From positions 1-24,990 of the IMG/VR virus record IMGVR_UViG_3300049595_002773: DNA of 24,990 bases; one strand, 5' to 3'. Positions 6,509 to 23,763 of the stretch are shown here, piece after piece (position 1 is the first letter of the stretch; every line of letters starts with the position of its first letter). The notes below the pieces were generated by a model that saw only the letters and a program-made list of their open reading frames with translations, did not search any database and had not been told where the DNA came from. The translations under genes and the position numbers were made by a program. This DNA is from a virus.

Positions 6509-6713
6509 GGTTCGGCATGGACCACCCTCCTGGTGGGAACGCGTCGCGCCGGAACACCTAGCCGAACTCAGTGCGATCAAGGCTGCGTGGCAGTCGGGCG
6601 AGCTTGGCAGCCGCAAAAAGACGCTGGCCCGCACCATCTCCAACAACCTGCGTGCTCGTGGCATCTCTGATATCGGGACGCAAGGAGTCCTTACATGGCT
6701 CGACGTAGCCTGA
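6450..6713 (+). CDS. small helical protein, possible DNA-binding, unknown
   Basis: The chosen start is GTG (VTKKSPSG...), because AGGAGA lies six to seven bases upstream; a more upstream ATG in the same frame has no such site and adds a non-native-looking Arg/Ala stretch. The 87-residue product is helical and basic, with a Trp-Trp pair (PPSWWERV), a predicted helix (EHLAELSAIKAAW) and a C-terminal helix-turn-helix-like segment around TLARTISNNLRARGISDIG. A role as a small regulator or terminase-like accessory is possible but not shown. It overlaps the start of the metallophosphoesterase gene by 19 bases. Confidence 0.55.
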   Translation: MTKKSPSGGLLDAVRKEMAEVRHGPPSWWERVAPEHLAELSAIKAAWQSGELGSRKKTLARTISNNLRARGISDIGTQGVLTWLDVA

Positions 6714-7765
6714 GCGATGATGTCGCCAGCGACCTGGCCGCCGCGTCGCAACTCGCCACCGATGCCGAGATCGCACGGCTGCGGTCGGAGCTGGCCTCGT
6801 ACCGAAATCGGTACAAGGCCGCCCTGTCGCAGATCGACCGGGAGCGCGAGCGGGCCGACGCTATATCGTCGCTCCAAGGCGTGCAGCCGGTGCCCTTGAC
6901 CAAGGTTGTCAAAGGCAAGAAGAGGGCCAAGCACTCGGCCACGGCGATCCTCATGCTGTCGGACGTGCACTGCGAAGAGCGCGTACTTCCTGAGACCGTA
7001 AATAACGAAAACGACTACTCGCTCGACGTATGTCAATCGCGGCTGGCCGAGCTCGAGGAGCGGTTTTTGGATTGCCTGCACCACGAACGCAACCAGGCCG
7101 ACATCCGCCGCGTGCTGATTTGGTTGGGCGGCGACTTCATTACGGGCCATATCCACCCGGATTGCGTCGAGGTGGCCCAGCTTTCGCCCATGAACGCCAC
7201 GCGGTGGATCGCCGAGCGGCTGCGTGGACTCATCGACAACGTGGCTCAGCACGCCGACGAAGTGGTGGTCTGCACCAACGCAGGCAACCACGGAAGATCC
7301 ACAGAGAAAAACCGCATTGCCACGGAGCTCGACCACTCGTGGGAACAGTTGATGTTTTTCACGCTGGCCCGCGAGGAGAAAAACAAAAACGTGCAATGGA
7401 AGATAGCCGAGGGCCACCTGGGCTACGTCGACCTCGACGGCTTCCTCGTACGCACGACCCACGGCCACTCCATCCGGTTCGCTGGTGGTGTCTACGGACT
7501 GGCCCTACCGGCCTCCAAGGCCATCGCCCGGTGGGACGCGGGACGCAAGGCGAATCTGACGATCTTCGGCCATTACCACTCGTTCGGCTGGCTGCGTGGT
7601 GCACGCTACGTGGCGAACGGGAGCGTCATTGGCCACAGCCCATACGCCGAGAGGGTCGCCTCACCAGAGAGGCCATGCCAGGGCATGGCAATCATCGACC
7701 ACGGCCGCAACGAGGTGACGCGTGCGTATCCACTGTTCTGCGACCGCGACCTACGGACGCGTTGA
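6695..7765 (+). CDS. calcineurin-like metallophosphoesterase
   Basis: The 356-residue product has an N-terminal coiled coil (residues 20-60, QIDRERERADAI) and then a metal-dependent phosphoesterase domain. The hallmark motifs occur in order: D-x-H in LMLSDVHCEE (about residue 89), GGDFITGHIH (about 144), GNHGR (about 198), THGHS (about 256) and a final GHYHSF (about 292). These supply the Asp, His and Asn ligands of a dinuclear metal site. Substrates in this family include nucleotides, phosphoproteins and DNA ends; the sequence does not choose between them. The start is supported by AAGGAG seven bases upstream. In phages such enzymes are usually accessory and may act in nucleic acid processing or host modulation. 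Confidence 0.85.
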   Translation: MARRSLSDDVASDLAAASQLATDAEIARLRSELASYRNRYKAALSQIDRERERADAISSLQGVQPVPLTKVVKGKKRAKHSATAILMLSDVHCEERVLPETVNNENDYSLDVCQSRLAELEERFLDCLHHERNQADIRRVLIWLGGDFITGHIHPDCVEVAQLSPMNATRWIAERLRGLIDNVAQHADEVVVCTNAGNHGRSTEKNRIATELDHSWEQLMFFTLAREEKNKNVQWKIAEGHLGYVDLDGFLVRTTHGHSIRFAGGVYGLALPASKAIARWDAGRKANLTIFGHYHSFGWLRGARYVANGSVIGHSPYAERVASPERPCQGMAIIDHGRNEVTRAYPLFCDRDLRTR

Positions 7766-8464: not shown

Positions 8465-8546
8465 TCGTATCGGCAAACGTCGCTTTTTCGTCGCTTTTGG
8501 GATACGTCTCGGGGACGTGTCGCTACGCACAACGTGACGCTAGTGG
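8465..8546. other. short intergenic region between convergent genes
   Basis: This 82-base gap lies between a rightward and a leftward gene. It holds two tandem copies of CGTCGCTTTT (8478-8487 and 8489-8498) and a small ACGTC/GACGT hairpin (8503-8517). No strong intrinsic terminator with a following T-run is visible. At 8534-8550 there is GTGACGCTAGTGGCTAC, a variant of the 16-mer operator-like motif seen near the early promoters; it overlaps the 3' end of the leftward gene. Confidence 0.5.
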
Positions 8547-8756
8547 CTACTTAGTGTGCAGTCGCTCCAGCAGCGAGCGGAGCGTGTCGGCGTATTCGTG
8601 AGGCGGGTCGTCGTCGGCGTGAATGTCTGCGAAAAACTCAATCGCCTCCCGCTCCTCGGCGGTGATCTGCACCCAGCCGTAATCTGCCAGCACTTCTAGC
8701 TCATCGTCGCCTGCAACAATGCGACCGTGAGCGTGTTGCAGCCAGTGTTCGCTCAT
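8547..8756 (-). CDS. small acidic protein, ER-A-F/TLRSLLER family, unknown
   Basis: The 69-residue acidic product is read leftward. The start is supported by a GAGGG ribosome binding site about six bases upstream. Residues about 30-66 read as ITAEEREAIEF, then an acidic loop, then TLRSLLERL. The same arrangement appears at the C-terminus of the 116-residue protein encoded at 18937-19287 (LTKKERKAVAF ... TLRSLLERM), so the two are paralogous over this part. The motif is a predicted two-helix unit; function is unknown. It is the last gene of the leftward lysogeny-side group. Confidence 0.6.
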   Translation of the reverse strand: MSEHWLQHAHGRIVAGDDELEVLADYGWVQITAEEREAIEFFADIHADDDPPHEYADTLRSLLERLHTK

Positions 8757-8791
8757 TCTGCCCTCAGTTTTTTTGCTAAAAACCTTGACAC

Positions 8792-9004
8792 TCAGTCATC
8801 GAGTAACCCCGGACTGTCCCTGAGTATCTCGCGTATGTGCTCTAGGTGATGCCGCGTTTCCGGTGTCGGTTCGCCGTGCTTGAGGACGCCACGGCAATAC
8901 TGATCGACCTGCCAGATCACCGATTTGGCGTCGGCACCCTGGAGGGCGGCGGTCAGTTCGGTCTGCTCATCGGGCAGTCGGAAGCGAAGGATGACGTGAG
9001 GCAT
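8792..9004 (-). CDS. small phage protein with LRFRLPDE N-terminal motif, unknown
   Basis: I chose the ATG at 9004 (MPHVILRFRLPDEQ...), giving 70 residues. This resembles a widespread phage family that starts with an LRF-x-LPEE-like strand and continues with a helical ALQG...VIWQVDQYCRGVLKHGE segment. The family is of unknown function and is often found in early phage regions. The frame continues upstream without a stop to a TTG at 9109, directly after the integrase stop and in the same frame, but that extension lacks a good ribosome binding site and overlaps a repeated DNA segment. So the upstream start is possible but less likely. Confidence 0.55.
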   Translation of the reverse strand: MPHVILRFRLPDEQTELTAALQGADAKSVIWQVDQYCRGVLKHGEPTPETRHHLEHIREILRDSPGLLDD

Positions 9005-9024
9005 TCCAGATTCCAAAATGAGAC

Positions 9025-9093
9025 GCCGCCCGGCTGGGTCGGCGACACGGGTTATATGTCCGCTGCCTGCCAGCCGGGCGACGTATGGGCATT
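9025..9093. repeat. dispersed repeat copy A (partner at 19359-19427)
   Basis: By hand alignment, this 69-base segment matches 19359-19427 at roughly four positions in five, with two compensating one-base shifts. The best blocks are GCCGCCCGGC, GGCGACACGG, GTCCGCTGCC and GCCGGGCGACG. Both copies have the same orientation on the + strand. Each lies beside a gene with the ER-A-F/TLRSLLER motif. In all three + frames the copies differ in coding quality, so it is unclear whether a peptide or the DNA is conserved. Confidence 0.6.
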
Positions 9094-9112
9094 TGACAGA
9101 ACTGGTCAAGGG

Positions 9113-10033
9113 TCACGCGGCTGGCGGCTCGTGCGGCCTGTCGAGATCCGGCAGGTAGTCCAGGTTGGACTCCCGTCCGGTGATCTCCTCATCGTAGTAG
9201 TGGTTCTCGGCCATTTCCTCGGACGAGTGGCCCAGCTGCTTCCTGGCCGAGATCCCGGCCCGCTTCAGGTACGAGGCCGTCGATTTGCGGATGGCGTGGA
9301 ATGGCTTGTAGTCCACGCCGGCCACCCGGCAGAGCACCCGCAGGCTGTTGTACGCAGACAGCGGCTCCCGGTCGTCCAGCCAGGGCCATACGCGAGCCTC
9401 TGGCGGGCCTTTCTGGGTCGCCAGCATCTTTGCTAGGTCGGGCGTGATCGGCCGCGTAATCGTCTCCCTGTGGCCCTTGCGGGTGGCAGCCAGGAACGTC
9501 AGCGTGTGCCGCTCGAGGTCCACCTCCGACCAGCGGATCTGCAACACCGCACCGATCCTCTCGCCGGTCTGAAACATGGCCATGATTTTGGTCGGCCAGT
9601 ACCAGGCCGCCGGCACGCCCGAGACCAGGCCCTTCCGCTGCCGGCCGACCTCCACCAGCCGTACGAGCTCTTCGGCCTTGTAGGCTTTCGGCACGGGCCG
9701 CGGGACCTTCGGCCTGGCGTAGTCGGGGAACTCGATCATCTGGCCGTCTGACCGCTTCCACCGCTTCTTGGCCAGCCAGTTCCACAAGGTGCGGATGTGG
9801 GCTGAGTCTTTTGCCAAGGACGCCGGGCTGATTAATTTCCAGCGTGAGTGCTGGGTGACACGCCGCCACCGCAGAAACTTGGCGATCGTCAGATCGTCGA
9901 GGTCGTCTACAGTCGGCTCCCGGCCCAGGAAGTCCCGCAGGCGGGCCAGCGTTGCCACGTACATCGCCACCGTCCGGTCGCACAGGTCCTTGTGTGGGGC
10001 AAATCGGTCAATCAACAGGTCTTTCAGCTGCAT
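9113..10033 (-). CDS. int: tyrosine recombinase (phage integrase)
   Basis: This 306-residue site-specific recombinase would integrate and excise the phage genome at an attachment site. The start is the ATG at 10033, because AGAGGAG lies directly upstream; an in-frame ATG 60 bases further up lacks a site. The N-terminal part (residues about 1-110) is the SAM-like core-binding domain. The catalytic domain shows Arg I in TGERIGAVL (about residue 159), a Lys in ATRKGH, His-x-x-Arg in FHAIRKS (about 245-248), LGHSS (His about 268) and the nucleophilic Tyr in ENHYYDEE (about 278). All essential residues are present, so it should be active. It reads leftward, divergent from the HTH gene at 10348, with a shared control region between them. 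Confidence 0.92.
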   Translation of the reverse strand: MQLKDLLIDRFAPHKDLCDRTVAMYVATLARLRDFLGREPTVDDLDDLTIAKFLRWRRVTQHSRWKLISPASLAKDSAHIRTLWNWLAKKRWKRSDGQMIEFPDYARPKVPRPVPKAYKAEELVRLVEVGRQRKGLVSGVPAAWYWPTKIMAMFQTGERIGAVLQIRWSEVDLERHTLTFLAATRKGHRETITRPITPDLAKMLATQKGPPEARVWPWLDDREPLSAYNSLRVLCRVAGVDYKPFHAIRKSTASYLKRAGISARKQLGHSSEEMAENHYYDEEITGRESNLDYLPDLDRPHEPPAA

Positions 10034-10109
10034 CTTCGCTCTCCTCTTTGGTGTTTGAGGGGCGATCCTAGCGGGTAGTGTACAGACGTTCAAGTTTTCG
10101 GCTCAAGGG

Positions 10110-10302
10110 TACGGACCAAGGTTGGCCGTCCGCTCAATCCGCTTGAAACTCTGCACACCTTGTACAGAGGTTCAATCTGCACCCCATCCGCTAGAACAAT
10201 CGCCCCATTTGGGATGAGGTGATAGTGTACAGCGTTTCCAGTGAACGGAGCAAAGCAGGAATCCGAAGCGGCGCCTACCTCGTGAAATACGGACCAAGGT
10301 TG
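10110..10302 (+). repeat. pair of 15-bp direct repeats TACGGACCAAGGTTG
   Basis: Identical copies lie at 10110-10124 and 10288-10302, with starts 178 bases apart. They bracket the TGTACAG-type dyad and one single copy. Such a bracketed arrangement suggests a protein-binding array, for example Int arm-type or Xis/repressor sites. The identity is seen directly; the role is inferred. Confidence 0.8.
10143..10175. promoter_or_regulatory. 33-bp dyad in the int region (candidate Int core or operator)
   Basis: TTGAAACTCTGCACA (10143-10157) and TGTACAGAGGTTCAA (10161-10175) are inverted 15-mers separated by CCT; 13 of 15 positions pair. Related single copies lie at 10079-10093 (TGTACAGACGTTCAA) and 10226-10240 (TGTACAGCGTTTCCA). 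Tyrosine recombinase core sites are inverted arms of 11-13 bp around a 6-8 bp crossover, and this dyad, taken with slightly shorter arms, has a comparable shape. A repressor operator is an equal alternative. Confidence 0.55.
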
Positions 10303-10313
10303 TCCGCGTATGT

Positions 10314-10341
10314 TTGACACTAGAACCGCTAGCGTTACATT
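10314..10341 (+). promoter_or_regulatory. promoter P0 with embedded operator-like 16-mer, upstream of HTH gene
   Basis: -35 is TTGACA (10314-10319), the spacer is 16 bp and -10 is TACATT (10336-10341). GAACCGCTAGCGTTAC (10323-10338), a near-perfect palindrome around GCTAGC, starts four bases after the -35 box and covers the spacer and part of the -10 box. The ATG at 10348 lies where transcription would start, so the mRNA may be leaderless. Confidence 0.65.
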
Positions 10342-10347
10342 GCAGGA

Positions 10348-10611
10348 ATGATTGCCGTGGCCTCGCCAGACAAAGAATGGATCACAGTCGCCGAAGCAGT
10401 GAAGCTCTGCGGCTGCACCGAGGGCTACATCCGGCGGCTCTTGATCGCCGAGGATCCCCGGCTGACCGGCTGGAAGGCCGGCCAGCGGGCTTGGCTGGTC
10501 AAGCGGGCCGACGCCGTGGCCCTCAAGGCCAGCCTGTCCACCCGCTCTGTCGGCAGGCGGGCCGAGAAGCCGGCGGCACCCAAGCCCAGCCGCAAGCGGA
10601 AGCCCTCGTAA
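10348..10611 (+). CDS. excisionase/MerR-like HTH DNA-binding protein
   Basis: The 87-residue product has an N-terminal winged-helix DNA-binding domain of the excisionase/MerR type (residues about 10-60): EWITVAEAVKLCGCTEGYIRRLL is the helix-turn-helix, and the wing and recognition area follow with GWKAGQRAWLVKRADAVAL. The C-terminus is a Lys/Arg/Pro-rich tail. It is divergent from the integrase across a repeat-rich region, the classic place for Xis or a small lysogeny regulator. It may direct excision, repress the early promoters or do both. AGGA lies too close to the ATG to be a normal ribosome binding site, consistent with leaderless translation from P0. Confidence 0.7.
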   Translation: MIAVASPDKEWITVAEAVKLCGCTEGYIRRLLIAEDPRLTGWKAGQRAWLVKRADAVALKASLSTRSVGRRAEKPAAPKPSRKRKPS

Positions 10612-10654
10612 TCCTCGAGGAAAGCCGCACCCAAAGAAATCTTCTCAAGAGCCC

Positions 10655-10682
10655 TTGCACGAAGTAACGATAACGGTACACT
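10655..10682 (+). promoter_or_regulatory. promoter P1 with embedded operator-like 16-mer
   Basis: -35 is TTGCAC (10655-10660), the spacer is 16 bp and -10 is TACACT (10677-10682). GTAACGATAACGGTAC (10664-10679) starts four bases after the -35 box, as in P0 and P2. It should drive the gene at 10735. The rest of the 10612-10734 gap holds a small CCTCGAGG palindrome (10615-10622) but no clear terminator. Confidence 0.65.
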
Positions 10683-10734
10683 AGGGCCGAGCGAGCAACC
10701 GAGACTCGCGGACCTCAAGCAGAAAGACGAAACT

Positions 10735-11019
10735 ATGAGCTCTAGTAAGTACCTTCGCCAGCAGATCGACGGCATGGCTTCCGGCGAGTGCCGCTACATC
10801 GGCCGCCCAGACGTTCACGTTTACTGCCATAACCCGCTCGTGCGAATCACTGGCATTGACGGCCGGGAACGGTGGCAGCGGCAGCCTGGGGCTGCTCGCT
10901 ACAGCGTTGCGTGCCCAGCGGCTGGCCTGCGGTACGGCACTTGGGTTACGGCCTCCGAGGCCGCAAGCACCGTCGGCGGCATCCTGCAGGGCTTTGCCGT
11001 CACGGTTAGCGCTGCCTGA
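10735..11019 (+). CDS. early small protein, unknown
   Basis: The 94-residue soluble product has no recognised domain. It opens with a helix (SKYLRQQIDGMAS) and continues with strands rich in Tyr, His and Cys (YIGRPDVHVYCHNPL; Cys near residue 67). A Gly/Ala-rich segment near the end could be a short helix. It lies directly behind promoter P1, so it is probably the first gene of the rightward early transcript. The ribosome binding site is purine-rich (AGAAAGACGAA) but not canonical. A regulatory or host-takeover role is typical of this position, but nothing in the sequence proves it. Confidence 0.55.
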   Translation: MSSSKYLRQQIDGMASGECRYIGRPDVHVYCHNPLVRITGIDGRERWQRQPGAARYSVACPAAGLRYGTWVTASEAASTVGGILQGFAVTVSAA

Positions 11020-11090
11020 AAACACGACTCGCCTGCCGGCCGCAGTGCCAGCGGGCTCACAGGATTCTCTCGGCCAAGGAGGGCTAAGCG

Positions 11091-11234
11091 GTGAAACAGA
11101 AACTCGACCGGCTGATTCAAGCCCTCGTCTTCATCCGCCTCGGCCAGCAGCTGGGCACTGACTCGGACCTCGCCCAGGCGATCGCCAAGTGCATCGACCT
11201 GGTTGTTTCCACGCTCTCCCGATTTCTTGCTTGA
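11091..11234 (+). CDS. 47-residue small helical protein
   Basis: A short GTG-started frame has a textbook ribosome binding site (AAGGAGGG at 11076-11083, seven bases before the start). The product is one or two amphipathic helices: KQKLDRLIQALVFIRL, then DSDLAQAIAKCIDLVVSTLSRFLA. The strong initiation signal in DNA with few such sites makes this a real gene. Function is unknown. Its stop codon lies within the -35 box of promoter P2. Confidence 0.7.
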   Translation: MKQKLDRLIQALVFIRLGQQLGTDSDLAQAIAKCIDLVVSTLSRFLA

Positions 11235-11285
11235 CAGAAGTAACGCTATCCGTACTCTCTCGCACCCAAGTGACGTTAGCGGCAC
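11231..11285 (+). promoter_or_regulatory. promoter P2 with two operator-like 16-mers
   Basis: -35 is TTGACA (11231-11236), the spacer is 16 bp and -10 is TACTCT (11253-11258). GTAACGCTATCCGTAC (11240-11255) starts four bases after the -35 box. A second copy, GTGACGTTAGCGGCAC (11270-11285), starts exactly 30 bp further on, about three helical turns, and lacks good promoter hexamers. The paired spacing fits cooperative repressor binding. Confidence 0.65.
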
Positions 11286-11354: not shown

Positions 11355-11382
11355 TTGACTCACAACTGGTCAGACGTACACT
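11355..11382 (+). promoter_or_regulatory. promoter P3 upstream of the 81-residue gene
   Basis: -35 is TTGACT (11355-11360), the spacer is 16 bp and -10 is TACACT (11377-11382), the same box as P1. The 16-mer operator is absent here, so this promoter may be constitutive or under other control. It lies 30 bases upstream of an ATG with an AAAGGAG site. Confidence 0.55.
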
Positions 11383-11412: not shown

Positions 11413-11658
11413 ATGGATGCTCATGATCGTGAATACGCCGGAGCCGTCGCCGGGATGTCAGAAACCTACGGCAGCGACGTGAACGCCTTTGCCATCGGCA
11501 CGGGAGTCACCTTCCGCCTCGCCGGCTGGCCTCATAGCTCGTTCGACGACGGCGATGTGATCGGCCACCACAACGGCAAGCTGCTCGTCGAGACCGCCGA
11601 CGACATCGTGGAGGTCGACCCGCGGGCGTGGCCCGAGGGCAACGTACTGCCCTGGTAA
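11413..11658 (+). CDS. small acidic protein, unknown
   Basis: The 81-residue product has a net negative charge. The N-terminal half is polar (DREYAGAVAGMSETYGSDV). The C-terminal half looks like a small beta-barrel: VTFRLAGW, DGDVIGHHNGKLLVETADDIVEVDPRAW, where the alternating hydrophobic and polar pattern suggests an SH3- or KOW-like fold. The start is supported by AAAGGAG. It is placed between promoters P2/P3 and the recombination ATPase. I do not recognise a family. The following 141-base gap holds no obvious gene, only a ribosome binding site for the ATPase. Confidence 0.6.
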   Translation: MDAHDREYAGAVAGMSETYGSDVNAFAIGTGVTFRLAGWPHSSFDDGDVIGHHNGKLLVETADDIVEVDPRAWPEGNVLPW

Positions 11659-11799: not shown

Positions 11800-12756
11800 A
11801 TGGCAGTGAACATCAGAAAGGCCCGTCGCAGTGCCACAAAACTGCGGCTTTTGTTGGAAGGCCCAAGCGGATCAGGCAAGACGTACGGTGGCCTGACAGT
11901 TACCAAGGGACTTGGCTGTCAGCACGTCATCGTTATCGACACCGAACAGGGATCGTCGGACCTCTACGACTCCATCCTCCCGTTTGACGTGATCGACCTT
12001 TCGCCGCCGTTCACGCCAGAGAAGTACATCGAAGCCATCGAGGCTGCCGAGCAGGCTGGAGCCGACTGCATCATTATCGATTCCATCTCGCACGAGTGGA
12101 ACGGAAAAGGCGGCTGCCTCGAGCTGGTCGACGAGATTGCCAGGGCCAAGTTCAAGGGAAACACCTGGTCGGCCTATAGCGAGATCACGCCGCGGCACCG
12201 GGCGTTTATCGACAGGATGCTGCGGTCGTCTGCCCACATCATCGCGACCACACGCAGCAAGACCGAGACCGCCCAGGTGAACGAGGGTGGTCGCACCAAG
12301 GTCGTGAAACTCGGCATGAAGGCGGAGACCAGGGACGGCGTCGAGTACGAGTTCACGACTTGCCTCAGCTTGGTTCACGACGGCCACTTTGCCGTCGCGT
12401 CCAAGGATCGCACCGGCTTGTTCTCTGGCGATCCCAAGCCAATCACCGTGGATACCGGCAAACGGCTGGCCGATTGGCTGGCCGGCGGGCTCCCGTCCCC
12501 TGTGGCGTCGGCGCCGACGCCTGCAAGAACTGCCGACGCTACCGGCGGTACAGGGGCCGGCCAGCCTGCCCGAGGCGGCTGGCTGGAGCGTGTGAACACC
12601 GCGGCCACCGTCGAGGAGCTCGGCACCATCGGCGATGAGGCGGACGAGGCCGTGTCGACCGGCGAGTTGTCGCCCACTCAGCGGGCGCGGCTCGACAAGC
12701 AGATCACCATACGCCACCAGCAGATCGAGCCGGAGGTGGCGAATGGCGTGGCATGA
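11800..12756 (+). CDS. RecA-like AAA ATPase (Sak4-type recombination protein)
   Basis: The 318-residue product is a P-loop ATPase. Walker A is GPSGSGKT (residues 21-28), a Walker B-like strand is CIIIDS (about residues 89-94), and a following segment (SHEWNGKGG) may sense nucleotide. The C-terminal 100 residues are a Pro/Ala/Thr linker and a short helical domain, probably for protein contacts. Phage RecA-core ATPases of this Sak4/AAA_24 group help single-strand annealing, usually with a phage SSB; such an SSB-like gene follows at 12809. It would act in recombination-dependent replication. AAAGGA lies about seven bases before the ATG. Confidence 0.8.
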   Translation: MAVNIRKARRSATKLRLLLEGPSGSGKTYGGLTVTKGLGCQHVIVIDTEQGSSDLYDSILPFDVIDLSPPFTPEKYIEAIEAAEQAGADCIIIDSISHEWNGKGGCLELVDEIARAKFKGNTWSAYSEITPRHRAFIDRMLRSSAHIIATTRSKTETAQVNEGGRTKVVKLGMKAETRDGVEYEFTTCLSLVHDGHFAVASKDRTGLFSGDPKPITVDTGKRLADWLAGGLPSPVASAPTPARTADATGGTGAGQPARGGWLERVNTAATVEELGTIGDEADEAVSTGELSPTQRARLDKQITIRHQQIEPEVANGVA

Positions 12757-14096: not shown

Positions 14097-14408
14097 ATGA
14101 GCGACTACTACCCAGACACGATCGCCACGCTGCCGCTGTTCGCAGCCGCCAGGGCATCAGGCCCGGCGACATCGCACGCGGCTGCAGAACAGGCCGGCGG
14201 TTTGGCTACGCGGCACCAGCGGCAGATCCTCGCGGCGCTGCTCGACGGCCCGGCTGGGGCCAGCGGCATCGCGGCACGGTGCGGGCTGCTGCCTCACCAG
14301 ATCGGCAAGCGGATCCACGAGCTGGCCAAGGCTGGCCGGATCGTGGAGACGGGCAGGACCGTGACGAGCTCGAGCGGTAGGGGCGAGAGGGAATGGAGGA
14401 CTGCATGA
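14097..14408 (+). CDS. MarR-like winged-helix DNA-binding protein
   Basis: The start is the ATG at 14097 (MSDYYPD...), supported by GAGGAG. The 103-residue product has a polar N-terminus and a winged helix-turn-helix from about residue 38: RHQRQILAALLDGPAGASGIAARCGLLPHQIGKRIHELAKAGRIVETGR (given only by its ends, residues 38-86). A one-domain regulator of this size may act on phage or host promoters. The stop is overlapped by the next ATG (ATGA), and the GGAGG site for that gene lies inside this one. Confidence 0.65.
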   Translation: MSDYYPDTIATLPLFAAARASGPATSHAAAEQAGGLATRHQRQILAALLDGPAGASGIAARCGLLPHQIGKRIHELAKAGRIVETGRTVTSSSGRGEREWRTA

Positions 14409-15046
14409 ACATTGAAGACATGAAGACCCCCCAGCACATGGAGTTCAAGGCCTACGCAGCGTTTTCGTCGCGACTCATGGTCGGATTCAATCTGCAGGGG
14501 CGATACCTCCAGATGACTGTGAACAACCGCCCGACATCAGAGCGTGACGCCGCAAAGTTCAAGATCGACGCGAGGATCACACTCGACGGAGAAGAGATTG
14601 GCGTTCTCGACCTGGAGAGGAAAACACAATGGCAGGGCGGCGCGTGGCCGTATCGAAAGATAAACGTGCCGTACAGGCCGTTCGCCGTCTTCGAGAACAA
14701 CGAAAACGGTCGCGGGCGATTCAGTTCTAAGGTCCGCGAACTGCACAAGGCCTACGCAGCCGGAAGGCCTGGATTTTGGGTCGGCTATTCGTCGCCAATC
14801 GCGGACGCGAGCGGCCAGACCACGTTTGTCTCGCGGCAAGCCTGCCTTGTTGTCCCCGCTTCACACATCTTCTCCGACAGATTTAATCCTCGCGCTGAAA
14901 CGCAGCCAAACAGATTCGGCCCTCCGATCAGTGTCATCTCGTTGGACAACGACGCCGGGATCATTTGCTTTTCGGAGGATGAATTTACTGAGGTGATTGT
15001 TGGGACCGTTACGGAATGGATGAACACGCAAGGAGCCGCGATATGA
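14405..15046 (+). CDS. putative PD-(D/E)XK-like nuclease-fold protein
   Basis: The 213-residue product starts at the ATG at 14405, with GGAGG five to six bases upstream. Around residues 50-75 a strand-turn-strand reads KIDARITLDGEEIGVLDLERKTQW. Its D...D-x-E-R-K pattern is what the PD-(D/E)XK nuclease core looks like (Asp, then Glu-x-Lys on a beta hairpin). The rest is beta-rich with a conserved-looking NVPYRPFAVFEN block. No signature outside that core is seen, so nuclease activity is a hypothesis. The stop is overlapped by the ATG of the ParB-methyltransferase gene, so the two are probably coupled. Confidence 0.45.
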   Translation: MNIEDMKTPQHMEFKAYAAFSSRLMVGFNLQGRYLQMTVNNRPTSERDAAKFKIDARITLDGEEIGVLDLERKTQWQGGAWPYRKINVPYRPFAVFENNENGRGRFSSKVRELHKAYAAGRPGFWVGYSSPIADASGQTTFVSRQACLVVPASHIFSDRFNPRAETQPNRFGPPISVISLDNDAGIICFSEDEFTEVIVGTVTEWMNTQGAAI

Positions 15047-17266: not shown

Positions 17267-17487
17267 CGATGCCATCCGAGCGCACTGCCGCGATCGTCTG
17301 GACGCGCGCGTTTCTTGTGCGGCTATCGAGCCCGTACGTGCCGGACGGTCTCAAGGGCATCCCTGCGGTCGTCCGGCAGGAGGCCCGGCGGCTGCTCAAG
17401 CACTACCCGCATACGTTCGACCTGGCCCAGGGCGACTCGTTGTGCCAGGAGACGGCCACGAAATTGTTGGACGAGGTGACACCATGA
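17263..17487 (+). CDS. BPSL0761-like phage protein
   Basis: The 74-residue product begins MTMPSERTAAIVWTRAFLVRL and continues VPDGLKGIPAVVRQEARRLLKHYP. This order (MTMP-x-ERT, a Trp/Arg helix, then EARRLLKHYP) fits the BPSL0761 family of small phage/prophage proteins of unknown function. It is helical. The ATG overlaps the previous stop (ATGA), and its own stop is overlapped by the next ATG. It lies directly between the replication initiator and a LexA-type regulator, so it is part of one early operon. Confidence 0.65.
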   Translation: MTMPSERTAAIVWTRAFLVRLSSPYVPDGLKGIPAVVRQEARRLLKHYPHTFDLAQGDSLCQETATKLLDEVTP

Positions 17488-17723
17488 CGCAGGAGCAGCA
17501 AATGACCACGGCAGAGAAAGCGCCGCTGACAGCGCGGCAACAACAGGTTTACGAGTTCATCGTGGCGAACATCGAGCTCTACTCGCCGACCGTGCGGGAG
17601 ATCGCCACAGCGTTGGCGATCAAATCGCCGCACGGCGTAACTGTGCACTTGGACGCCTTGGAGAAAAAAGGCTGGATCAGCCGCAAGCCTCACGCGGTGC
17701 GTGGGATCAAGGTGAACGCATGA
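17484..17723 (+). CDS. LexA-type winged-helix regulator lacking a peptidase domain
   Basis: The 79-residue product matches the LexA N-terminal DNA-binding domain: LTARQQQVYEFIVANIE, then SPTVREIATALAIKSPHGVTVHLDALEKKGWISR as the HTH and wing (positions 30-63), and RGIKVNA at the end. No Ala-Gly cleavage site or Ser-Lys peptidase follows, so it cannot self-cleave like LexA or CI. It could compete for SOS-type operators or act as a phage regulator released in another way. The start is taken at the ATG at 17484 in an ATGA overlap; an inner ATG at 17502 is possible. Confidence 0.75.
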   Translation: MTQEQQMTTAEKAPLTARQQQVYEFIVANIELYSPTVREIATALAIKSPHGVTVHLDALEKKGWISRKPHAVRGIKVNA

Positions 17724-17920
17724 CTGTCGAAAACGCAGTGTTTGTGGCTACTGGTGTTCTGGTCAACGGATTGACTTTTGCCCTCGGCATCGCCGTGGGT
17801 GCGTCCCTCAAGCGAAAGGATTCTTCACATGGGTACGACTACCAAAAATCGCAATGGCATCGTGTTGAGCGTCGCGGCGCTCAAGGCGGCATTTTCGATC
17901 GTGAAAAGCGCGGTGACTGA
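17720..17920 (+). CDS. small one-pass membrane protein, overlaps dnaN start
   Basis: A 66-residue frame starts at an ATGA overlap and overlaps the clamp gene by 92 bases in another frame. Residues about 6-29 form a membrane segment (AVFVATGVLVNGLTFALGIAVG, given by positions 6-27), followed by a basic KRKDSSHG part. The coupling argues for a real gene. The C-terminal 30 residues are read from the same bases as the clamp N-terminus and may be unconstrained. Confidence 0.45.
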   Translation: MTVENAVFVATGVLVNGLTFALGIAVGASLKRKDSSHGYDYQKSQWHRVERRGAQGGIFDREKRGD

Positions 17921-18932
17921 CCGCACGCCGCGGCCGATTCTCCGCAACGTGCTGATCTCGGGCGGCCAGGTGGTCGGCACCGACCTCGAGGTGCAGGTGA
18001 CGGCGGCCGTGCCGTTCGACGGCCCGGCGCTCTTGCTGCCGTTCGCACGGGTCTGGTCGATCCTGACCGAGTGCCGCGACGACGAGATCACGATCACGCC
18101 GCAGGACACCAGCTGCGTGCTGTCGACCAAGCGAGGCTCGTGGACGCTGCCGACGGAAGATCCGGCCGAGTTTCCGACCATGACGGCCGAGCACGCGGCC
18201 AACCGGATCAAGCTTCCGGCCGACCAGTTCGCCGGACTGGTGCATGCCGTGGTGGAAGCCTGCGACATGAAAAGCACCCGGTACGCACTGGGTGGCGTGA
18301 TGGTCGAGGTCAAGGGCGATAAGGTCTCTGTCGTGGCCACAGACGGCCGGCGGCTCACGATGGCAGAGGCCGAGCACGACCTGGCCGTCGATGACTCCGA
18401 GACGTTGATTCCGCAACGTGTAGCCAAGATGCTGGCCGAGATCGCCAAGGAGGCCGGCGGCGAGGAGCTCGTGGAGCTCGAGGCCAGTACGAACACGCTG
18501 GTCTGTACCATCGGGTCTACCGTGGTGACGGCCAGGCTTGTCGAGGGCCGGTTTCCGCGGTGGCGAGATGTGTTCCCGAAGAACTCGACCAAGGCGACGA
18601 CTGTGAGCCGTGGGCTGCTGGCTGATGCCACGCGGGCCGCTGCCATCACGACGAGCGAGTCGAGTAAGGGAGTGGATTTCTCGTTCTCTCAGCAGGGCCT
18701 GCACCTCCACGCTCAGAGCAGCGAGGCTGGCGAGTCCAGCGTGACGTGCGACATCGTAGAGTTCGGCAACGCTGCCACAGTGAAGCTCGACCCGAAGTTC
18801 CTGCTAGACTTCCTGGCTGGCTTGGCCAAGGACAGCGAGCCGGATGTGGAGATTCAGGCCGCGAAGCCGGGCGATGCCGTGCGGCTCAAGTGCGGCGACG
18901 TTCACGGCGTGATCATGCCGCTGGCAGAGTGA
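17829..18932 (+). CDS. dnaN: DNA polymerase III beta subunit (sliding clamp)
   Basis: The 367-residue product is a full-length bacterial-type beta clamp. I chose the ATG at 17829 (MGTTTKNRNGIV...) because AAAGGA lies about eight bases upstream. The three clamp domains are visible: domain 1 to about residue 115 (RPILRNVLISGG), domain 2 from about 128 (RYALGGVMVEVKGDKVSVVATDGRRL) and domain 3 to the end (MPLAE, the usual C-terminal MPL tip). Clamps encircle DNA and tether polymerase and repair factors. No phage DNA polymerase lies in this window, so the clamp may direct host Pol III to phage DNA. Divergence from host clamps cannot be judged here. Confidence 0.9.
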   Translation: MGTTTKNRNGIVLSVAALKAAFSIVKSAVTDRTPRPILRNVLISGGQVVGTDLEVQVTAAVPFDGPALLLPFARVWSILTECRDDEITITPQDTSCVLSTKRGSWTLPTEDPAEFPTMTAEHAANRIKLPADQFAGLVHAVVEACDMKSTRYALGGVMVEVKGDKVSVVATDGRRLTMAEAEHDLAVDDSETLIPQRVAKMLAEIAKEAGGEELVELEASTNTLVCTIGSTVVTARLVEGRFPRWRDVFPKNSTKATTVSRGLLADATRAAAITTSESSKGVDFSFSQQGLHLHAQSSEAGESSVTCDIVEFGNAATVKLDPKFLLDFLAGLAKDSEPDVEIQAAKPGDAVRLKCGDVHGVIMPLAE

Positions 18933-22842: not shown

Positions 22843-23763
22843 ATGGCAGTTCCCGCCTTTGGCTACGATCCAGATCCAGCAGGCGCCGAGGCGTTTGTCT
22901 CGTCGCTTGCGCGGCCCACGCTCGCACAGGCCGGGCCTGACCTGACAACCGACGAGAAGACGGACGTTTTCTTGTACGAGTCGCTGCTGAAGTGCATGCC
23001 CTCGTGGAAGCGTGGCAGCCAGGGAAACGTCGGGTCATGCGTTGGCTGGGGTGCGGCTCTCGGTATCGACATGCTGGCGGCCTGCGACATCCACTGGCGG
23101 CGCGAGTCCGAGCAGTGGGGCGGCCGGACTGTAGAGGCGAGCATCTATGGGTTCAGCCGGGTCGAGGCCCGCGGCCAGAAGGTGAACAACGGCGGCGACG
23201 GCAGCACCGGGTTTCACGCTGCCAAGACCGTGAGGGACTTGGGCTGTCTGCACTACGGCCAGGACTACGGCGGCACTCGGATCGACTCGCATTCCTCGGC
23301 CAGAGAGCGCGAGTGGGGCCGGGATGGTGTGCCGAATGAGCTTGAGCGGTTCGCGTCCTTGCGACGTTGCAGCGAGACCACGCTGGCCACATCGTTTGTC
23401 GAGGCTGCTAAGGCGATCGCTAACGGATACCCGGTCGTGGTGTGCAGTGGCCAAGGCTTTTCGATGAGCCGAGATGACGATGGGTTTTGCAAGCCCGGCG
23501 GCGTCTGGTGGCATTGCATGACGCTTGGCGGCCTGCGCTGGGGCAAACGGCCCGGCCTGCTCTGTTTCAATTCGTGGGGAAGGTCCAACACGGTCGGAAA
23601 GCACTTCCCGGAGAACATCCCGGAAGAGGTCAAGGCGTGCAGCTTTTGGATCGACGCTGCCGTCTGCGACAAGATGCTGTCGGGCCGTGACTCATACGCA
23701 TACGCGGGATACAGCGGCTTCCAGGCGTCCAAGATGCCCAACTGGACCGGAGTAGCGCTATGA
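22843..23763 (+). CDS. papain-like (C1-type) cysteine peptidase
   Basis: The 306-residue product has the C1 catalytic layout in order. SQGNVGSCVGWG (Gln60, Cys66) is the oxyanion Gln and nucleophile. VWWHCMTLGG has the His (224). CFNSWGRS has the Asn (243). The N-terminus is polar and lacks a signal peptide, and a helical insert (about 75-150) precedes the second lobe. In a cassette with membrane proteins and no recognised muramidase or amidase, it could be the phage lysin, acting on a protein-rich cell wall. Alternatively it matures virion proteins. The ATG at 22843 has AAAGGGTG upstream; the stop is overlapped by the next ATG. Confidence 0.82.
   Translation: MAVPAFGYDPDPAGAEAFVSSLARPTLAQAGPDLTTDEKTDVFLYESLLKCMPSWKRGSQGNVGSCVGWGAALGIDMLAACDIHWRRESEQWGGRTVEASIYGFSRVEARGQKVNNGGDGSTGFHAAKTVRDLGCLHYGQDYGGTRIDSHSSAREREWGRDGVPNELERFASLRRCSETTLATSFVEAAKAIANGYPVVVCSGQGFSMSRDDDGFCKPGGVWWHCMTLGGLRWGKRPGLLCFNSWGRSNTVGKHFPENIPEEVKACSFWIDAAVCDKMLSGRDSYAYAGYSGFQASKMPNWTGVAL

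Follow-up and report, generated by a model that had tools for sequence, protein, structure and literature searches.

Inverted repeats in the serial early promoters of a temperate, uncultivated phage: a winged-HTH protein as their probable repressor

Four inverted repeats at the head of an early operon, at positions 10323, 10664, 11240 and 11270, are probably the operators of one phage-encoded repressor, the small winged-HTH protein encoded at 10348-10611. They lie in a window of 24,990 bases at 63% G+C, the viral record IMGVR_UViG_3300049595_002773, whose source is an uncultivated temperate phage. The HTH protein is singled out as the likely repressor because the sequence of the sites changes in step with it across about 40 contigs. 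Two features of a repressor system occur together: near-identical sites are repeated over early promoters, and the specificity of these sites covaries with the HTH protein.

The gene for the HTH protein, an 87-aa protein of the HTH_17 / Xis-MerR type proposed to read the operators, is on the plus strand and is divergent from a tyrosine integrase gene (9113-10033, minus strand); the gap between the two contains widely spaced direct repeats. Beyond the HTH gene lie a gene at 10735-11019, a 47-aa ORF (11091-11234, plus strand) that is present in many relatives, a gene at 11413-11658 and an AAA / Sak4-like recombination ATPase gene (11800-12756, plus strand), a replication/recombination gene downstream of the putatively regulated promoters. 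Farther along, the window encodes a MarR-like protein (about 14097-14408), a ParB-methyltransferase-like protein (15016), a LexA-like protein (17484-17723) and a beta-clamp-like (DnaN-like) protein (17778), the labels at 15016 and 17778 coming from our own reading of the sequence. Hints of a host are scattered: the closest genome matches of the AAA gene are spread over many phyla, the HTH profile finds weak matches only, in Planctomycetota, and the peptidase at 22843 has a 43% match in a Planctomycetota genome, in a region that yielded nothing convincing for the other window genes tried.

The sequence-only reading had placed related 16-mers at 10323, 10664 and 11240, each in a promoter with a 16-base spacer, and all three are present there on the plus strand. 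Promoter P1 (10314-10341, TTGACA - 16 - TACATT, with its -35 box at 10314-10319) is upstream of the HTH gene and contains O1, GAACCGCTAGCGTTAC (10323-10338), whose promoter-distal half is degenerate. P2 (10655-10682, TTGCAC - 16 - TACACT, -35 box at 10655-10660) precedes the gene at 10735-11019 and contains O2, GTAACGATAACGGTAC (10664-10679). P3 (11231-11258, TTGACA - 16 - TACTCT, -35 box at 11231-11236) contains O3a, GTAACGCTATCCGTAC (11240-11255), and the stop codon of the 47-aa ORF falls within its -35 box. O1, O2 and O3a start three bases past the -35 box, run through the spacer and end on the third base of the -10 box. The copy at 11270 had also been counted among the promoter sites; it has no promoter of its own and is a candidate second operator, O3b, GTGACGTTAGCGGCAC (11270-11285, plus strand), 30 bp after O3a, 3' of the P3 -10 box and near the expected start of the P3 transcript. 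Because of the gene order after the HTH gene, P1, P2 and P3 are to be seen as standing in series at the head of one early operon, not at unrelated gene starts as had been suggested. A fourth promoter-like sequence, P4 (11355-11382, plus strand, TTGACT - 16 - TACACT), lacks an operator; it is followed by the gene at 11413-11658 and occurs at the corresponding place in most relatives.

The near-palindromic character ascribed to the sites holds in the form of a half-site, four variable bases and an inverted half-site, GTAACG-N4-CGKTAC for the window as a whole, while the supposed GCTAGC centre is particular to the site at 10323. A symmetric matrix built from the four sites was used to scan the whole window and 200 shuffled windows. 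The four are the top-scoring of about 25,000 window positions, at 19.0-23.0 bits; the best scores in the shuffled windows average 11.4 bits and reach 17.0 bits at most. When each site was left out of the matrix in turn, it still ranked between 1 and 5. Matches are not as common inside genes as in promoter regions: four of the top five positions are in promoter regions and one is genic. The genic one, at 6799 (17.7 bits, a perfect dyad in six-base arms), had been overlooked before; it lies inside the gene at 6695-7765 and was rejected as an operator, since only 7-12 of its 16 bases are kept in homologues at 61-68% protein identity. The variant proposed at 8534 drops out of the family: it lies between convergent genes and scores 9.2 bits, rank 10, under the mean maximum of the shuffled windows. 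A degenerate pattern, TAMCGNNNNCGKTA, searched with one mismatch in 22 contigs, was too loose and gave no excess over a reversed-pattern control; conservation of position was used in its place.

Homologues of the HTH protein are found in about 40 distinct viral contigs, most of which share one layout: an integrase gene, a divergent winged-HTH gene and three promoters in series, each with a site inside it. P1 precedes the HTH gene (in clade C it lies about 70 bases ahead of the aligned start), P2 follows it and P3 precedes the third small gene. The sites hold the same place between the -35 and -10 boxes, with spacers of 16-18, and counterparts of O3b lie 21-33 bp past the P3 site in clades A, B, C, D, E and F. 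The sequence of the site is specific to the clade, and all sites of one genome change together. Clade A, to which the window belongs, has GTAACG-NTAN-CGKTAC, and L007 has CTAACG-N4-CGTTAG; clade B has CTACCG-AYRT-CGGTA, with CTGCCGACATCGGCAG as its second P3 site; clade F (L013 in G014, L044 in G013) has TTCTARCCACATCYC. In clades C (CTACCGMTAGSCTA), D (GTTGCGATACTGCTAC) and E (STGACGMTACC) the sites are only partly palindromic. The HTH protein of clade F is B-like, and its operators were considered as B-like too; they turned out to be about equally similar to those of A and B. When O2, O3a and O3b were paired by genome across six clades, 216 matches resulted, a count that none of 20,000 random pairings reached, the operator sequences having been entered by hand and the permutation being uncorrected for phylogeny. 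Among the clade A operators O1 scores lowest, its distal half being degraded (10-18 bits, against 18-25 for the other sites), and the P1 sites of clade B keep mainly the proximal half. Conservation in place across about 40 contigs, together with concerted change, supports the earlier proposal of one trans-acting factor that acts on an operator shared by several early promoters.

The same data bear on whether the sites are operators at all. Their position in P1-P3, within the spacer and reaching into the -10 box, would also suit elements of the promoter itself, read by RNA polymerase or by a phage or host sigma factor, but this is very unlikely: O3b lies outside any promoter, the sites form inverted repeats, P4 combines the same type of -35 and -10 boxes with no site between them, and the spacer sequence differs by clade more than the boxes do.

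If the sites are operators, the comparative evidence makes the HTH protein their likely reader in preference to the LexA-like and MarR-like proteins, which had also been put forward. The distance between operators correlates with the distance between HTH proteins at r = 0.894 in the 16 contigs with all data and at 0.86-0.90 in other sets, in all cases with operators read off and typed by hand and with genomes that are not phylogenetically independent. The HTH effect persists when other proteins are held constant: 0.885 given the LexA-like protein (16 contigs), 0.84 given the integrase (21 genomes), 0.82 given the 47-aa ORF (20 genomes), 0.86 given the AAA protein (18 genomes) and 0.80 given the integrase and the ORF together (18 genomes). 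The integrase and the ORF retain small residual effects of 0.19-0.25, as linkage would produce. No more than about 1 kb separates the HTH gene from the operators, and so some of their covariation is due to linkage, which the integrase and ORF controls reduce and do not remove.

Particular genomes separate the candidates. G014 is nearly identical to the window over the AAA protein (99%), gene 12803 (98%), the ParB-methyltransferase-like protein (100%) and the DnaN-like protein (98%), and it has another integrase, another HTH protein and TTCTARCCACATCYC operators at P2, at P3 and after P3: it comes close to a natural swap of integrase, HTH protein and operators. G002 presents the converse case, with integrase and HTH protein at 99% and A-type operators beside an AAA protein at 43%. 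In G005 an HTH protein at 91% again goes with A-type operators.

These genomes speak directly to an SOS-type reading of the promoters, in which the LexA-like protein or the LexA of the host would recognize the sites. LexA proteins commonly bind inverted repeats, the phage protein carries a LexA DNA-binding domain and its relatives occur in 18 of 23 contigs; yet operators do not track it. It is 97% identical in G014, where the operators differ, but 79% identical in G002 and 39% in the full-length copy of G005 (a second copy there, which the end of the contig truncates, has about 70% identity), where they are of the A type, and its effect on operator distance given the HTH protein is r = -0.16. 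The LexA of a host, for its part, would leave the different operators of G001 and G014, two closely related phages, without explanation, and we consider this whole reading very improbable. Recognition by the MarR-like protein is more improbable still: relatives of this protein, a weak HTH_20 match, occur in all nine of the groups compared, and it is closer to the window's copy in G014 (91%) than in G001 (84%), yet it is G001, not G014, that shares the operators.

The family of the HTH protein is that of excisionases. Its PHROGs match is excisionase and transcriptional regulator (phrog_66, E 8.7e-5), its family profile matches Pukovnik Xis at E 2.6e-4, and Pfam HTH_17 matches 16 of 23 family members at E <= 0.1 (best 6.6e-8; the window's copy, 0.015). 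A model of the monomer is a winged HTH with a mean pLDDT of 75 and no obvious dimerization coiled coil; its top Foldseek match has E 0.02, and the folds closest to it are those of Pukovnik Xis, BldC, CarH and MerR-type DNA-binding domains at Z about 6-7, values that, according to the tool's own note, may reflect merely a common arrangement. As expected of an excisionase/RDF gene, the HTH gene encodes a member of the winged-HTH family and adjoins a tyrosine integrase gene. The promoter sites were not classed as RDF sites because they are inverted repeats and lack the direct repeats about one turn apart that such sites have.

This kinship would also fit a different role for the same protein: it may read the sites as an activator, or be an excisionase that shuts off early genes secondarily while the true immunity repressor is encoded elsewhere. 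Apl, Cox and XisF combine excision with regulation beside a separate repressor, and MerR-type activators also bind between the -35 and -10 boxes. However, MerR activators work on promoters whose spacers are long (19-20 bp), whereas those here are 16-18, which fit RNA polymerase with no MerR-type distortion; and no separate CI-like repressor was recognized among the part of the window genes that was scanned. We judge this alternative unlikely, though it has to be taken seriously.

Repression by the HTH protein is the simplest reading because the sites take up the spacer and reach the -10 box, so that a bound protein would exclude RNA polymerase. From the comparison of sequences we infer that the protein binds directly and as a dimer, represses rather than activates, and has a role in lysogeny. 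Seated between the -35 and -10 boxes, the HTH protein would keep RNA polymerase off P1, its own promoter, as well as off the early promoters P2 and P3, and O3b, the second copy just past P3, would strengthen the block. P1 would be repressed less than P2 and P3, escaping full repression because the distal half of O1 is degraded; with the early operon shut down, this weaker repression would keep the amount of HTH protein steady. A switch from lysogeny to early gene expression through these operators is plausible. Counting against the repressor reading are the missing coiled coil, the preference of well-studied Xis/Apl-type proteins for direct repeats and the imperfect palindromes of clades C, D and E.

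A broader proposal is more tentative, and we think it somewhat doubtful as a whole. The excisionase-type winged-HTH protein may be the only immunity repressor of these phages, acting through inverted-repeat operators in three serial early promoters and repressing its own gene more weakly; it may pass between phages in a single integration-immunity cassette that also carries the integrase and the operators, and the operator clades may be separate immunity groups. The analysis offers a testable wiring diagram for lysogeny control in phages that have never been cultured, proposes which protein is likely to be the repressor and provides several pairs of repressor and operator from nature, between which cross-reaction is not expected; immunity groups are predicted on the basis of sequence alone. 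It also poses the question of how an excisionase-type fold, normally found on direct repeats, could read inverted ones.

Literature searches on this operator system found no description of it, and among known systems several offer partial parallels. Apl of phage 186 and Cox of P2 are, like the HTH protein, small winged-HTH proteins linked to an integrase, and they pair a role in recombination with repression of phage promoters (PMC7498355). Well-studied Apl/Xis-type proteins bind with low specificity to direct repeats 10-11 bp, or one turn, apart (PMC7498355); Apl and Cox use arrays of direct repeats beside a separate immunity repressor, whereas the sites described here are inverted repeats inside three promoters of the same direction. 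In the XisF4 / Pf4r switch of Pf prophages an excisionase likewise controls the lysis-lysogeny decision (PMC7379572), but there it opposes a repressor whose gene is divergent, and here the divergent gene is the integrase. In Cluster A mycobacteriophages, a repressor and its many sites are described as setting immunity specificity across a phage group (PMC6550527, PMC9283540); their operators and stoperators are asymmetric, numerous and genome-wide, in contrast to four inverted sites confined to the early region. Pukovnik Xis (PDB 4J2N), RdfS and BldC share a sequence profile and a fold with the HTH protein. Head-to-tail binding is reported for BldC and RdfS (PMC11963761), and the known HTH_17 / MerR-type winged-HTH members assemble in this way on direct repeats; the literature on proteins of the Pukovnik Xis, RdfS and BldC type yielded no inverted-repeat operators of this kind. 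The operator system would belong to a known conceptual class, within which inverted repeats would be a variant for Xis/Cox/Apl proteins.

The interval between the integrase gene (9113-10033, minus strand) and the divergent gene for a small winged-HTH protein (10348-10611, plus strand) contains, at 10076-10306, three 15-mers resembling TGTACAGnnGTTCAA and two copies of TACGGACCAAGGTTGnCCG spaced 178 bp apart. These repeats are possible arm sites for the integrase or an excisionase or, alternatively, a portion of the attachment site. At L013, a locus in a related contig with a swapped cassette (a different integrase, HTH gene and operators), the integrase-HTH interval holds an apparent tRNA gene 3' end (GGTTCGAGCCCAGCGGGGTG, about 3985-4010 of L013), flanked by repeated GGTTCCnGTA motifs; this tRNA-like 3' end is a likely attachment site.

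The stop codon of a 47-aa ORF (11091-11234, plus strand) lies within the -35 box (TTGACA, 11231-11236) of the operator-bearing promoter P3 (11231-11258, plus strand), an arrangement common to L018, L022 and L007, loci in related viral contigs. Another promoter-like site, at 11355-11382, lacks an operator and precedes the gene at 11413; most relatives have such a site at the equivalent position, and through it the third gene may be expressed independently of the operators.

The 17484-17723 product is a phage LexA DNA-binding domain from which the peptidase half is absent, with relatives in 18 of the 23 contigs. The product of 17778-18932, judged by its sequence, looks like a phage-carried beta sliding clamp (DnaN).
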